Shown piece after piece: positions 4,203-10,322 of a DNA stretch of 64,000 nt (its first letter is position 1; every line of letters begins with the position of its first letter). This DNA comes from an uncultured Bacillota bacterium. Lineage in GTDB: Bacteria > Bacillota_I > Bacilli_A > RFN20 > CAG-826. The notes beneath the pieces are model-generated. The model saw only the letters and a program-made list of their open reading frames with translations. It had not been told where the DNA came from and made no database searches. Position numbers and translations under genes: made by a program. Location of the stretch: positions 1-64,000 of the forward strand of contig CASEFL010000001.1 in the NCBI GenBank assembly GCA_949287245.1, given 5' to 3'.

Positions 4203-4560
4203 AAGCACAATATAAAACTCTTTTTTCTTCGTTAAAAGTATTTTCTTCAGTCAAGAAGGATAATTATTATCAAAACTATACAGTGACATATAATTAATAA
4301 GCCTATTAAGCCAAATTTATTCAAATTCTCTTGTGATTCTACAGAAAATATTCGTTACTCATTTTAATATCTTGGACAAAATTTATAAGTTGACGAGCAA
4401 TTCAATTTTTATTTTTGATATTGTAAAAACAATCGATTATTACTGATAAAAATAATATTCTCCAAAATGGAGAATTACTCTCTCTAATGCTTTTTAAGCC
4501 TATAGAGGATATTTTGCTTTTCCTTTTCTAGAATGTGTGCGGCCAGGAGGCCATATATTT
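4203..4560. other. AT-rich divergent intergenic region with a palindrome
   Basis: No gene is seen in these 358 bases. The region holds the -10 element of the minus-strand XRE gene, a perfect eight-base inverted repeat with three-base spacer at 4457-4475 (possible operator), and a short hairpin at 4541-4552 whose loop and right arm contain the AGGAGG Shine-Dalgarno of the next gene. No convincing complete forward promoter could be fixed. Confidence 0.5.
4457..4475. repeat. Inverted repeat, candidate operator
   Basis: ATTCTCCA and TGGAGAAT are separated by AAA. No T run follows, so a terminator is unlikely. The site is 85-104 bases upstream of the gene at 4561 and in the same spacer as an HTH regulator gene, so a protein-binding operator is the simplest guess. 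Confidence 0.45.
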
Positions 4561-5475
4561 ATGAAGAAAAGTGTGAAAATTGCATTAATCTCTGTTGGTT
4601 CTGTTTGCGGAGTTGCTTTGCTTACTTTCGGTGGTTTTGCTATTTATGAAGCCTGCCAACCATCAAGAGATTACAACGTTTTAAATCCCGATGGCGGTTT
4701 TAATCGAGATGTTTTAGTTCAAAAATATGATGATTTAGGTTCTGTTTCTGATTATACAGAGCATTTTTCTGCCGCCGAGGCAAGTGTCCTTGCTTATACC
4801 TTATTTCAGGATAATGAATTCTACGCTACAAGGGGTGTTGGTACGGCAAATGCTTCTATTGTCACGCAAAATATTTTCTCAACCCAAATCCGTGCAGGTA
4901 ATGAATTTTTTGAGGAAAGCAACAGCAAAAGTATGTTTGTTAACGTTGCCTTTCGCATGTATGAAGAAGATGGCGAAACGATTCAATACCGCGGGAAAGT
5001 TGGCGATGATTTAGAGGACGGCGTTTTTAGTGATGAAGGCGTCCTTTATGAGAATGATGAATATGCTGAGATGATGGGACGAAATGTTCATAGCGTGGAA
5101 ACATACATCATTTCTAATAAAACTGTGCTTACTGGGGAAAAGGAAGCAAGTTGGTATGGGGAAACCTCTTTTACGAAAACCGCATCTGGATATGCTATTG
5201 AATTGGAATTAGATCCTTATTTATCTGTCGCAAATTATGTTCGACAAATGAAAACAATTTCAAATTTGGCGGAATATCCTTATTTTTATTACGTTCACCT
5301 TTCCTTTACTTTAGATAAGGATTTACATCTTGTTGAATTAACGACTCACGAAAAGTATCGTGCGAAGCTTTCTTCGATTATTGCAAGCGATACTGAAGGT
5401 TCGTTAACAACATCTTTTTATGCTGGACGGGAGGAAGAAATCCCTCTTTTAAATGCTCCCTCCTTCTCCCTTTAA
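4561..5475 (+). CDS. Exported or membrane-anchored protein of unknown function
   Basis: I do not recognise this 304-residue protein. It begins with MKKSVK and a hydrophobic stretch (about residues 6-28), so it is secreted or held by one N-terminal membrane helix; the cysteine in YEACQPS does not fit a lipobox. The remainder is polar and beta-rich, with no obvious catalytic motif. The frame is open to a GTG at 4537, but ATG 4561 has AGGAGG at 4545-4550 and keeps the signal at the N-terminus. A lipoprotein gene follows after 23 bases, so the two are probably one cell-surface operon. Confidence 0.8.
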   Translation: MKKSVKIALISVGSVCGVALLTFGGFAIYEACQPSRDYNVLNPDGGFNRDVLVQKYDDLGSVSDYTEHFSAAEASVLAYTLFQDNEFYATRGVGTANASIVTQNIFSTQIRAGNEFFEESNSKSMFVNVAFRMYEEDGETIQYRGKVGDDLEDGVFSDEGVLYENDEYAEMMGRNVHSVETYIISNKTVLTGEKEASWYGETSFTKTASGYAIELELDPYLSVANYVRQMKTISNLAEYPYFYYVHLSFTLDKDLHLVELTTHEKYRAKLSSIIASDTEGSLTTSFYAGREEEIPLLNAPSFSL

Positions 5476-5498
5476 GTTCATTATTGATGAGGTCTTAT

Positions 5499-8324
5499 AT
5501 GAATAAAAAACAACTAATTCTTACTTTTTCGCTTTTAGGAGTTTTTTCTCTTAGTTCTTGTGACGGGGGAAATGTCAATTCTAGTAGCAGTCATGTTACC
5601 GAAAGCAATTCTTCTTCCTCCTTTATTGAGAAAGAAAACCATGTTGATGATTTAATGGCGAATTTACTTTCATTAAAGAGTTTAAAAAGTACGTTTGTTC
5701 TTAATACGCAAATTGCTTCTTCTACTGGTTTACCAACACTTGGCACAAATACGGTCGAGATTGAGGGAACCTTTGATTTAAATCTTCTTTCTTTAGAAGA
5801 AATTTCGTGTCATTTAGTTGCGGAAGGTGACTATAACGATGCAAAAATTAATCTTGAGGCAACATATGTTGATTCTGTTGCTTATGCGAAAGTGAGTTTG
5901 CCTGAAAACGATGATGCCTTGCGTTATTCCTTAAAAGAAGAAAATTTTTCTGATGTTATCTCTTTCATTACAAAAGTAAGTGGTCTTTCTCTTCCTACTT
6001 TTGATGGGGATTTTAATTCGATTCTTTCTTCGTTAATTATCAAAGAAACAAAAGAAACGTCTACAGGATATGAGTTCTCATTGACTTTCGAGGGCGAAAA
6101 ACCCATCACCCTTACTCTTGAAAGCAATAAAGATTGTGAACTTACAGGTGTTACAGGGAATTTCCTTGTTGATGGTTCTATAGTTTCTTTATCGATGGAT
6201 ATTGAAATGAGCACAACCGAATCTTTAATGGAAATTTCTGCACCTTCTGATGCTTCTTCTTATCAAAATTTTGTCAATACCTTAGAAGTTTTTGATCAAA
6301 TTGCGGACTTAGCAAATAATCAACAATTTGGTTTTTCCTTAGAGATTTCTTCTTTCAGTACACCAAATAGTTCCACACCAATAGTGGGAGATGATTCTAG
6401 CTTACTAATTGATGTAGATGGAGCTTATGACAAGAAAGCAGAAAAAGGAAAGTTCACCCTTACTTGTCAAGAGAAAGAAGGGGATGCCTCGCAACAAGCA
6501 TCCATACTTTTTGATAACGAATATGGCTATCTTGATTATCAAAATTCCTTAAAACTTAAATTTGCTCAAAGCGATTTAGACGAATTTACTTCTCTTTTAA
6601 TGGCGGATTATCCTTTAGAAGAAGGTTTCTTTGAAAATATTTTTGCCTTCCTTTTAGAAACACCCGCGGTAACCGAAATTCTTCTAGGTGACTATTCTTC
6701 CCTACTTGACGCTTTAGTTTCTTTAAAACAAGAGGAAAATGCTGTTTATGTGACTTTCGAGGGAAGAGATTTTGGTTTAGGGAATGATTCTTTGTGTACG
6801 ATTTCTCTTACAAATGAATCTTTGCTGGGAATTTCTTTAGAAAATTTCTCCATTAACGGCTATTCCTTTGGTTTGGATTTTGTTCTTAAAGAGTTTACGC
6901 CTATTGAAATTGAGCAAGAGCAATATGTAACGATTCACGCTCTTCCTACGATGTATCAGCAATTCGCTTCATTAATCGAAAATCCCCGTTTTAATATTGG
7001 AATTGCAGGAATTTTTGAAAATGGCAACTCTTTAAATGGAGTACTTCAAGTGAATGCGAAAACCGAGGAAGTGTCCCTTTCTCTTTCCTATAAGGAGCTC
7101 TATCTTGATCAAAATAATGCCGAAGCTCAAAGCGTGCCATACACCCATAAGGTTCTACTTGATTATCAAAATTCTTTATTCGCCCTTTCTTATAATTTAC
7201 TTGGCGAAAATGAAAGTGAAGTTACTCCGGATGAGCAGTTAAAAGGCGTACTTTCAAAACAAAGCATTAATGATATTGGAAATGTTTTATCTTCTCTAAT
7301 GCAAGGTAGATTGGGGGAATTATTCTCTAATTCCTTAGGGAATATCGCTCTTATTTCTGCTTTAGAACAGGCAGAAAATGGTGATTGGCACGACTTATTA
7401 TCTTTCTCTTTATTCACCGGAGTTTCGCATACGGAAAAAGGGATTCAAATCGCTTTAAATCCTTCCTTATTGGGAAAAGAAGGTTCTCTTTTCCTCCTTG
7501 TTTCTCAAAAAGAAACGGGCGAGATCGAATCAATTTGCTTTAGTGGGGATGTTGTAGGAGGAGAAATCACTTTCTCTTTGGAAGCTAAAGAAGAAAATGT
7601 TGTGCCTGTGACGGATTATGAGACCGCAAGCGATTCTTATCTTGTTCTTGATTCCTTAAGCATTCTTACAAATGCGATTGTCAAGGACACAGAATTAACC
7701 GCCCATCATATTGGCATTTCTTTAGATCTTAACGCTATTATTTCTCATCCCGTTATTGAAGGCGACATTTATATTGATTCTTCCTTAGATCCTGTCATTT
7801 ATGTCGATGTGACAAGAACGATAAAAAGCGAAGTAACGACAATTCAAATTCTTGTTCAAGATGGTTTTGTTATGAGTAAGATTGGTGAGGAGACTAGTAA
7901 AGTTTCTACCGATGAATATTCTGCTAGTTTAATGGATAACATCATGAATATCTTAGGCTTAGAATCCTCTTTAACGAGCATGATGGAAGAAGATACTTCG
8001 CACCCCGTATATGGTGACTCGATTGTTGAATCTTATGCTTATAACGCAGAAAATCGCACATTCTCTCTTAGCATGGATTTAGGGGACCTTTCAAGAATGT
8101 CTGTGATGAATACTGCCTTAGGTTCTTTGCCGCTTAATTTACTCATCGATGAAAATGGTTATTTAAATGAGATTAATTTTGATTGCACACTCCTTTCTAT
8201 TCTTGGTGGTCTTATACAAATTACAGTAAAAGGCAATCTTAATTTACTTGATATTGGAGAAAGCATTCCTCAGGAAATTATTGAAGAAGAAGTCGCTTTT
8301 GCAGAGATTTTCTCTTCCCTTTAA
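5499..8324 (+). CDS. Large lipoprotein built from four ~230-residue repeats
   Basis: This 941-residue protein has a lipoprotein signal peptide with lipobox LSSC (Cys at residue 21), then a Ser/Asn-rich linker, so it should be anchored on the outer face of the membrane. The mature part seems to be four diverged copies of one domain: the local motif appears as GDFNSILSSL (residue 170), GDYSSLLDAL (397), GDWHDLLSFS (628) and GDLSRMSVMN (862), spaced 227, 231 and 234 residues. Alternating polar and hydrophobic residues suggest beta-sheet folds like LolA/LppX lipid carriers, which is only a guess. TTG 5484 and ATG 5487 are alternative starts; GATGAGG before ATG 5499 favours the latter. Confidence 0.85.
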   Translation: MNKKQLILTFSLLGVFSLSSCDGGNVNSSSSHVTESNSSSSFIEKENHVDDLMANLLSLKSLKSTFVLNTQIASSTGLPTLGTNTVEIEGTFDLNLLSLEEISCHLVAEGDYNDAKINLEATYVDSVAYAKVSLPENDDALRYSLKEENFSDVISFITKVSGLSLPTFDGDFNSILSSLIIKETKETSTGYEFSLTFEGEKPITLTLESNKDCELTGVTGNFLVDGSIVSLSMDIEMSTTESLMEISAPSDASSYQNFVNTLEVFDQIADLANNQQFGFSLEISSFSTPNSSTPIVGDDSSLLIDVDGAYDKKAEKGKFTLTCQEKEGDASQQASILFDNEYGYLDYQNSLKLKFAQSDLDEFTSLLMADYPLEEGFFENIFAFLLETPAVTEILLGDYSSLLDALVSLKQEENAVYVTFEGRDFGLGNDSLCTISLTNESLLGISLENFSINGYSFGLDFVLKEFTPIEIEQEQYVTIHALPTMYQQFASLIENPRFNIGIAGIFENGNSLNGVLQVNAKTEEVSLSLSYKELYLDQNNAEAQSVPYTHKVLLDYQNSLFALSYNLLGENESEVTPDEQLKGVLSKQSINDIGNVLSSLMQGRLGELFSNSLGNIALISALEQAENGDWHDLLSFSLFTGVSHTEKGIQIALNPSLLGKEGSLFLLVSQKETGEIESICFSGDVVGGEITFSLEAKEENVVPVTDYETASDSYLVLDSLSILTNAIVKDTELTAHHIGISLDLNAIISHPVIEGDIYIDSSLDPVIYVDVTRTIKSEVTTIQILVQDGFVMSKIGEETSKVSTDEYSASLMDNIMNILGLESSLTSMMEEDTSHPVYGDSIVESYAYNAENRTFSLSMDLGDLSRMSVMNTALGSLPLNLLIDENGYLNEINFDCTLLSILGGLIQITVKGNLNLLDIGESIPQEIIEEEVAFAEIFSSL

Positions 8325-8345: not shown

Positions 8346-8372
8346 AAATCCTAGGATGACCCTAGGATTTTT
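8346..8372. terminator. Bidirectional terminator
   Basis: Ten-base stem AAATCCTAGG/CCTAGGATTT (8346-8355 with 8361-8370), T run on the plus side and the matching A run for the minus side. It separates the lipoprotein gene from the convergent ECF-methyltransferase gene. Confidence 0.85.
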
Positions 8373-9528
8373 ATTTTCGTTTTTCTAAGATAATACAATA
8401 AGGGAACTTCACGTCCTTTTCTAAATCTTTTCTCCTTTTAAAGTGGAAAAGAAAGGGAAGAGATTCGATAAACGGGGAAGATAAATTACGCGAAAGATGA
8501 TTTTTGTCCTTTTTGGATAAAAGATGATTTAATTCTTTTGTTTTCTCCTCTTGAACAATGTATATCTTTCCATTCTTTTTTAATAAACGTCGTGCTTTTT
8601 GGGCAAAAAATCGATAATCAAGAAAATGAGGATAGGTATTCAAAAGAAGAAGAACATCATAAGCGTTTTCTTCCTTCATATCCTCAAAAGAAGAAGAAAG
8701 AAATTGTGTTGAAGATATAGGAAAAAATTGCTTGGCCTTCGCGATTTGTTCATGCGCTAAATCGATACCGATAATTTTATAACCTTGCTCACTTAAAAAA
8801 TTTACGGCTTCACCAAGACCAGAACCAACCTCTAAAATGGTATCTTCCTTATTAAAGGGAAGAGAAAGCAAACCTTCTTGAAATTTGTTTTTTCTTTCTC
8901 CTTCTCTTAATTCATCATTTTTTGCTTTTTCATTAAAAAAAGCTGCTTCCTTCCTTAAAATTACGTTTCTTTGTTTGTAGGCGAAGAAGAATCGATCTTC
9001 TGGCGTAAGAAAACCTAAAACACGCAAAATAGAAAGAAGAGAAGGGATTAAGATTACTTGCAAAATGAGACCAGGCCAAGCTTCAATAAAATAAGTTGCG
9101 GAAAAAATGGCCCAAGAATAAGAATTTCCCTCCGATAAATAGAGAAAACAGTCATACATTCCTTTTAATCCTTTTCCTATCAATAAGGAGAGAAATAACG
9201 TTAAAAAGATATCGAATGTTTCGTTTCTTGTTTTCATTAAACGATAGAAAAAGCCTGAAAGAAGGCCATAGGCGCCAACTTCTAAAACCATTCCCGGCAT
9301 ACTTCCTAAAGCAGGCATTCCCGTAAGAAAAGTAGATAAAAGAGGACTCATTGCCCCAACGAATAACCCATAAAACGGTCCAAGGAGGAAGCCTGCAAGT
9401 AATGCTGGGATATGCATAGGCAAAAAGATTCTTCCGCTATTAGGAATCGAATGAAAGGCCATAGGCAATAAAATTCCTAAAGCAAGGAACATGGCAGCAT
9501 ACGTTAGACGGTGAATTTCTTTTCTCAT
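8371..9528 (-). CDS. ECF transporter S component fused to a class I SAM methyltransferase
   Basis: One 385-residue frame joins two unrelated parts. Residues 1 to about 175 are a multi-helix membrane domain like the substrate-binding S components of energy-coupling-factor vitamin importers (segments LPMHIPALLAGFLLGP and PALGSMPGMVLEVGAYG). Residues from about 195 form a Rossmann methyltransferase with motif I ILEVGSGLGEA, acidic motif IIGIDLAHEQ and YDVLLLLNTYPH. The transported compound may be methylated on entry, but this is inference; the substrate is not evident and no ECF ATPase or T component is nearby. ATG 9528 is chosen because TAAAAT (9536-9541) ends seven bases before it; ATG 9537 overlaps that hexamer. 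Confidence 0.8.
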   Translation of the reverse strand: MRKEIHRLTYAAMFLALGILLPMAFHSIPNSGRIFLPMHIPALLAGFLLGPFYGLFVGAMSPLLSTFLTGMPALGSMPGMVLEVGAYGLLSGFFYRLMKTRNETFDIFLTLFLSLLIGKGLKGMYDCFLYLSEGNSYSWAIFSATYFIEAWPGLILQVILIPSLLSILRVLGFLTPEDRFFFAYKQRNVILRKEAAFFNEKAKNDELREGERKNKFQEGLLSLPFNKEDTILEVGSGLGEAVNFLSEQGYKIIGIDLAHEQIAKAKQFFPISSTQFLSSSFEDMKEENAYDVLLLLNTYPHFLDYRFFAQKARRLLKKNGKIYIVQEEKTKELNHLLSKKDKNHLSRNLSSPFIESLPFLFHFKRRKDLEKDVKFPYCIILEKRK

Positions 9529-9535
9529 GTGTGAC

Positions 9536-9541
9536 ATTTTA
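9536..9541 (-). promoter_or_regulatory. -10 element for the ECF-methyltransferase gene
   Basis: TAAAAT on the minus strand lies directly after the rpsD terminator T run and seven bases before ATG 9528. There is no Shine-Dalgarno, so the transcript is probably leaderless. The -35 region would fall inside the rpsD terminator hairpin. Confidence 0.5.
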
Positions 9542-9563
9542 AAAAAGACGCCCGCAGGCGTCT
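9541..9563 (-). terminator. Rho-independent terminator of rpsD
   Basis: Seven-base stem (9546-9552 with 9557-9563) with a four-base loop, followed on the minus strand by six or more T. Confidence 0.85.
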
Positions 9564-9580: not shown

Positions 9581-10183
9581 TTACATGAGACGGTTATAGT
9601 ATTCAATGATTTGAGCTTCGTTAATTTGTAAGGGGAGTTCATTTCTTTCAGGAAGACGAGCAAAGGTGCCTTGCATCTTTTCTGGATCAACCGTGAGATA
9701 GCCAGGAACATTTGGCTTTCCCTCTAAAGATTCTTTTACAACTTTTAAACTTGTATCACGAATCGCGATAACATCGTTAATGGAGCAAAGGTAACTAGCA
9801 ATATCAACTTTCTTACCGTTAACCGTAACGTGGCCGTGATTGACAAGTTGTCTTGCCGCTGCCCGAGTACGAGCAAATCCCATCCGATAGACAAGGTTAT
9901 CAAGACGGCTTTCTAAAATGCGGAAGAAAGCAAGACCGGTAACGGTTTTCTCTTTCTTAGCAAGTTCGAATAAACGACGGAATTGACGTTCGTTTACTCC
10001 ATAAAGTTCACGAAGCTTTTGCTTTTCAAGAAGCTGAGCGCCATATTCGGAAGGTTTTCTTTTCCGATCTTGGCCGTGTTGACCTGGGCCATAAGCCCGC
10101 TTTTTCATTTCATCACCGCTTTCAAGGATACTAAACCCAAAGCGGCGGCTCTTTTTCCATGTGGAGCCGGTATATCTGGACAT
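9581..10183 (-). CDS. rpsD: 30S ribosomal protein S4
   Basis: S4 is a primary 16S rRNA-binding protein that nucleates 30S assembly. The 200-residue product starts MSRYTGSTWKKSRR, has the YGPGQHGQ segment near residue 33 and the S4 RNA-binding domain (about residues 92-155, RLDNLVYRMGFARTRAAARQ). It has no N-terminal zinc cysteines, so it is the zinc-free form. The frame runs 16 codons upstream, but the Shine-Dalgarno AAGGAGG (10191-10197) points to ATG 10183. It is monocistronic, with a promoter at 10329-10357 and a structured leader, and divergent from ezrA, as in Bacillus. Confidence 0.97.
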   Translation of the reverse strand: MSRYTGSTWKKSRRFGFSILESGDEMKKRAYGPGQHGQDRKRKPSEYGAQLLEKQKLRELYGVNERQFRRLFELAKKEKTVTGLAFFRILESRLDNLVYRMGFARTRAAARQLVNHGHVTVNGKKVDIASYLCSINDVIAIRDTSLKVVKESLEGKPNVPGYLTVDPEKMQGTFARLPERNELPLQINEAQIIEYYNRLM

Positions 10184-10322
10184 ATCATTTCCTCCTTGTG
10201 TCCTACGCAAGAAACAAGGGGTCTTTTCCATCCTTTCGGGTGCTATCTCTTCACCTTCGTAGCTAAAGGGTACTTTTTTAAGATAGCGTCAGACAAAGGA
10301 GTATTGACCTGCTGCTCGCGCG
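10184..10322 (-). promoter_or_regulatory. Structured 5' leader of rpsD, probable S4 autoregulatory site
   Basis: The roughly 138-base leader contains two helices. A seven-base stem pairs 10242-10248 with 10281-10287. A six-base stem pairs 10194-10199 with 10214-10219, and its 3' arm includes part of the AAGGAGG Shine-Dalgarno, so translation can be shut by pairing. S4 is known to repress rpsD by binding its leader in Bacillus. Whether this RNA has the S4-binding pseudoknot was not established here. Confidence 0.65.

Follow-up and report, generated by a model that had tools for sequence, protein, structure and literature searches.

Does a gene of a small, uncultured gut bacterium of the Bacillota join an ECF S-component to a SAM methyltransferase, and what would its product do? 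The gene lies on the minus strand at 8371-9537 of the window, which is the whole 64,000-nucleotide stretch of DNA analyzed here. A sequence-only reading had described an S-component and a full SAM methyltransferase in a single intact frame and had called for a domain search. The frame from 9537 to 8371 was uninterrupted and codes for 388 amino acids; the start is possibly the internal Met4 at 9528, which agrees with the orthologs. Pfam matched ECF_trnsprt (PF12822) to residues 10-167 of the product (62.6 bits vs. a cut-off of 30.7) and Methyltransf_11 (PF08241) to residues 235-327 (49.8 vs. 21.2 bits), both over the curated cut-offs. These matches, the 388-residue frame and the orthologs bear out the description. 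The AlphaFold2 model of the fused protein (pLDDT 91, pTM 0.85) had no low-confidence break along the chain, and the gene was single copy in the source genome. The fusion is real, and the S-component and the methyltransferase are made as one protein.

The S-component and methyltransferase halves

The S-component domain (residues 10-167; 9037-9510, minus strand) is placed among the S-components by its PF12822 score, its fold, its AxxxA motif and the ECF module in the same genome (EcfT at C12:9780-10469, with an adjoining ECF ATPase). The model of this domain had a pLDDT of 92.6 and its 20 best PDB matches were exclusively ECF S-components (RibU, FolT, ThiT, HmpT, and PanT), with TM values of 0.5-0.7 for most of ranks 1-20 and a best E-value of only 1e-3. 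A PDB sequence search with the S family found no close solved relative and a weak similarity to RibU. Helix 1 carries the AxxxA motif (A15 and A19; 9481-9495, minus strand), which has been tied to docking on the ECF module (PMC11109136); the motif was invariant in alignment A1, and across 45 S sequences alanine occupied position 19 in 44 and position 15 in 33, with glycine or serine in the remainder at position 15. The superfamily has two branches, FH and FLTGQ. Nine residues (F28, H29, P40, H42, P44, M74, M83, E86, and Q160) were invariant in the 45 sequences of the FH branch, the first five of them within the signature FH...G..F.PMHIP (residues 28-44; 9406-9456, minus strand). The FH branch carries the methyltransferases; no methyltransferase was present in the FLTGQ loci seen, and H29 is missing from the FLTGQ subfamily.

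The fold agrees with the earlier description of the S-component as vitamin-type, whereas the genomic context of the family, described below, favors nickel or transition metals over a vitamin. Two other S-components of the source genome (L029 and L030; contigs C5:49296 and C12:5517) directly adjoin coaX and folC and are presumably PanT and FolT, so S genes next to trapping enzymes recur in this genome. Identity with FolT was not supported, as the TIGR04518 score of 50.1 bits fell below the cut-off of 60, and since other S-components adjoin folC and coaX, folate is an unlikely cargo. The nickel/cobalt S family CbiM/NikM (PF01891) was absent from the Pfam matches to an E-value of 0.1. Riboswitches ahead of orthologs had been suggested as a way to name the ligand, but Rfam found none in the window or ahead of any S ortholog looked at; a THF riboswitch in L121 precedes another S gene. 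The ligand is not named by any riboswitch.

The methyltransferase half (residues 195-388; 8374-8955, minus strand) was delimited by Pfam, fold matches and alignment A3, in which it belongs to a single family whose GxG and PHF residues are invariant. The SAM-binding motif I, LEVGSGLG, occupies residues 235-242 (8812-8835, minus strand) and the PHF signature residues 303-305 (8623-8631, minus strand), its proline and histidine being invariant in 28 of 28 sequences. Class I features were present, with the GxGxG of motif I as GSGLG and an acid, D259, at the end of beta-2. Its fold matched N- and O-methyltransferases, and in both sequence and fold this half resembles small-molecule enzymes of that kind such as phosphoethanolamine N-methyltransferase. 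The near-invariant acid after beta-3 (26 of the 28 family members, Asp in nearly all relatives) is Ser283 in the window protein, and the conserved histidine of the AHS..R..IN..H motif is replaced by glutamine. Because of these two changes, methyltransferase activity of the window protein cannot be assumed.

Conservation of the fusion and its locus

Five of 24 further genomes from the genus had the same fusion, with 35-54% identity and each time adjoining rpsD (ribosomal protein S4), which is the upstream neighbor in the window too (9581-10231, minus strand) and keeps this place in those fusion genomes of the genus that were examined. With the alignment as query, a profile scan covering 84,980 species genomes added more fused species, among them uncultured Clostridia of a second lineage (L042 and L043); a scan of genome contigs with the single fused protein as query had given no matches. 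On a tree built from 113 S domains, the fused members all fell into one clade (SH-aLRT 90), together with L044. Methyltransferase association required 17 changes on this tree, so the pairing was often gained or lost. The fusion genomes of the genus had no second methyltransferase copy, and the fused methyltransferases shared a clade (SH-aLRT 89) with the unfused ones from FecCD-type operons of the genus. Values of dN/dS for close pairs were 0.01-0.14 in the S half and 0.10-0.29 in the methyltransferase half, indicating that purifying selection acts on both.

The sequence-only reading had named two outcomes that would undo it, a join created by sequencing error and separate genes in all close relatives. 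Most fused members do come from metagenome assemblies, one of which (L039:5914-6999) has a frameshift near protein residue 325 that truncates the methyltransferase half, and the frame of L044 departs close to a contig end. Against an assembly or sequencing artifact stand twelve fused rows, two distant lineages among them, that share one junction and, within the genus, keep their synteny. The recurrence of the fusion beside rpsD across five more genomes of the genus and its presence in further species rule the artifact out, and we regard its chance as negligible. Close relatives do not uniformly have separate genes either, as some are fused, and in others the methyltransferase belongs to the operon of an ABC importer.

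A terminator-like hairpin (gacgcc-tgcg-ggcgtc followed by a T-run; 9540-9562, minus strand), read from the sequence by eye, ends about 3 bases ahead of the fused gene's annotated start; for transcription from rpsD to reach this gene, read-through would be required. Two large adjacent proteins at 4537-8324 of the window had no Pfam match, the second having a lipoprotein-like start, and their synteny beside the fused gene is kept in relatives.

Partner enzymes and metal genes in relatives

In Clostridia, the S and methyltransferase families are mostly separate, adjoining genes, and the methyltransferase was a separate gene next to S in 30 unfused loci. At other S loci the neighbor was a P-loop kinase (12 loci), DUF3842 (22 loci) or both, and the methyltransferase never accompanied them. 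Among FH-type S rows, 42 were flanked by the methyltransferase, 27 by the kinase or DUF3842 and none by both (Fisher 3e-9, a value that ignores kinship); on supported branches, there were too few independent pairs for a contrast test of this exclusivity. In several operons, EcfA-EcfA-EcfT-S precedes one of two enzymes, the kinase or the methyltransferase. The two look like alternatives that serve one cargo, and such mutually exclusive partners are compatible with the earlier suggestion that the fused enzyme may modify the imported compound. The kinase resembles uridine kinase/phosphoribulokinase, lies directly beside an FH-type S in L049, L050, L064, L073, L091, L099, L105, and L153-L157, and in some cases has an N-terminal domain of about 170 amino acids without a Pfam match. 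DUF3842 (PF12953) is a frequent immediate neighbor of S, usually directly upstream (L057, L067, L071, L074, L075, L079, L086, L089, L093, L095, L096, L103, L108, and others). In L046 and L063, the S-methyltransferase pair has as its neighbor a MerR regulator that carries a TipAS antibiotic-recognition domain.

In fusion-free species of the genus, the methyltransferase is the last gene of an ABC operon encoding a FecCD-type permease, an ATPase and a binding protein (L008, L024, L013, and L014); such operons with the methyltransferase were also detected in L012 (same taxonomic order) and L171 (Clostridia). The methyltransferase is the constant part, and the type of importer, ECF S or FecCD-type ABC, swaps within one genus. 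When 398 genomes of the phylum were sampled, the neighbors included NikR directly before the S-methyltransferase pair, HypA and HypB, Nik-type ABC proteins, and Znu-type, FmdE-like and TupA-like proteins. By locus, NikR lay beside S or the methyltransferase in L190 (181 bits vs. a cut-off of 105), L191 and L195, HypA or HypA-HypB in L098, L148, L170, L180, and L187, and a NiFe hydrogenase in L148. Nik/Opp-type ABC genes were neighbors in L055, L053, L183, L193, L199, and L203. Further metal neighbors were ZIP (L090/L101), a Znu-type permease (L203), a metal-responsive repressor and, assigned by eye, TupA-like (L186/L201) and FmdE-like proteins.

Among 64 non-redundant loci without the fusion, about 24 had a metal-type gene, from families chosen post hoc, no more than 2.5 kb away or in their operon, and over half of the unfused loci had none within reach. 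Pfam counts of near vs. far neighbors in the first 80 loci were too sparse to be decisive, and the metal signal came from the methyltransferase-centered samples. HypA was present in 8 of 12 genomes of the genus with the methyltransferase and in 1 of 13 without (p 0.004), and in the Clostridia sample in 5 of 10 vs. 24 of 138 (p 0.025), both comparisons ignoring kinship. With regard to corrinoids, cobT lies three genes further on in L171 (by eye) and cobalamin riboswitches follow the S-methyltransferase pair in L053; no cobalamin riboswitch lay ahead of any S gene looked at. Searches for LarA and CODH in relatives were negative, and a putative CooC in L042, taken as a hint of CODH, was dropped as its best NCBIfam matches were MinD-like and under cut-off. 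The linkage to nickel genes was found in relatives, whereas HypA, LarA and CODH/prismane proteins were not found in the source genome; these searches identified no nickel enzyme there, which weakens the nickel reading for the source species. Given this and the partly degenerate methyltransferase motif, the present cargo of its protein is uncertain.

Proposed role and known systems

Metal is the common theme of the methyltransferase's neighbors, which include FecCD-, Nik-, and Znu-type importers and HypAB. We judge it about an even call that the fused protein serves nickel or transition-metal acquisition as an S-component tethered to its partner methyltransferase. The N-terminal half would capture the cargo, plausibly nickel or a nickel chelate, at the membrane and dock on the shared EcfAA'T module. 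The C-terminal enzyme would be a standing partner of Firmicutes metal importers, tethered here to its own importer, and would methylate an organic ligand, releasing or retaining the metal; the tether would set product release by the S domain and the enzyme side by side. The module would consist of an importer of the ECF S, FecCD or Nik type and a SAM enzyme for uptake of a metal or metal chelate. A wider form of the proposal, which we hold tentatively, is that the methyltransferase family is a general, so far undescribed component of Firmicutes nickel import, acting on the organic ligand of nickel with any type of importer, and that FH-type S proteins are a new class of nickel-chelate importers. 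The window protein would then combine capture of the chelate at the membrane and its processing in a single polypeptide. Two further observations count against the nickel or metal reading: tungstate, zinc and iron genes also lie nearby, so the identity of the metal is not fixed, and the kinase and DUF3842 beside methyltransferase-free S relatives fit an organic cargo equally well.

One alternative is an S-component that imports a metal-free, vitamin-like micronutrient, which the fused enzyme methylates and thereby traps as the kinase would in relatives. The vitamin-type fold, the either-or flanking of FH-type S genes, the source genome's own S-components beside coaX and folC, which encode enzymes that trap pantothenate and folate, and the published precedent of BtuM with btuR (PMC6072759) all suit this explanation. 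We nevertheless consider it rather unlikely, as the same methyltransferase accompanies FecCD-, Nik-, and Znu-type importers and HypAB, and the either-or pattern has few independent pairs on supported branches and could arise where a single neighboring slot fits just one gene. Service to cobalt, a corrinoid such as cobinamide, zinc, tungstate or another metal instead of nickel is improbable. The FecCD-type operons are BtuCDF-like, and the cobT of L171, the riboswitches after the pair in L053, and the TupA-like, Znu-type and ZIP neighbors point that way, but those markers with the highest specificity (NikR, HypA/HypB and the NiFe hydrogenase) are nickel proteins, and cobalamin riboswitches do not precede the S genes looked at.

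The sequence-only reading had also raised use of the S domain as a sensor or anchor, with an unrelated target for the methyltransferase. The 5TMR receptor family PF07694 does pass its cut-off on the fused protein (31.0 vs. 24.6 bits), and 5TMR receptors share the membrane fold and have a C-terminal soluble domain. Those domains are signaling outputs, however, and the paper describing them (PMC11109136) makes no mention of methyltransferases. The PF12822 score is double that of PF07694, the protein retains the AxxxA docking motif, its genome encodes an ECF module, and the S gene of Clostridia is separate, in several loci within an EcfA-EcfA-EcfT-S-methyltransferase operon. A mere anchor or sensor is thus very improbable.

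In the open-access literature, we found no methyltransferase-fused S-component and no report of such a methyltransferase in nickel uptake, in keeping with the earlier remark that this architecture, now seen to be conserved, is unusual and has no described counterpart. The metal-acquisition reading gives a testable role, linked to nickel, to two orphan groups of proteins in anaerobic and gut Firmicutes, a large subfamily of S-components and the methyltransferase family. If the enzyme modifies the imported ligand, metal uptake would include a new chemical step, and because the two parts are fused, capture and chemistry could be measured jointly on one protein that can be purified.

The fused protein shares the six-helix fold, the AxxxA motif and an ECF module encoded elsewhere in the genome with FolT/RibU/ThiT-type S-components (PF12822, group II ECF), but forms its own subfamily with an invariant FH...PMHIP, scores under the folate-family cut-off and is fused to an enzyme. 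Like BtuM with BtuR, it pairs an S-component with an enzyme that might act on the imported compound; BtuM, in contrast, is solitary, needs no ECF module and has a separate btuR, whereas the enzyme here is a fused SAM methyltransferase in a metal context. With the Cbi/NikMNQO nickel/cobalt transporters (PMC2667541), it would share ECF-type metal uptake if the nickel reading holds, although CbiM/NikM is a different S family. Among the neighbors of 988 IsrA homologs, no S-component and no such methyltransferase were named (PMC10134865). That study described isr-type IsrA-HypA-HypB operons in Acetobacterium, and L098, L170, and L180 appear to contain operons of the same kind, with an oxidoreductase of about 900 amino acids, joined by the methyltransferase or the S-methyltransferase pair.
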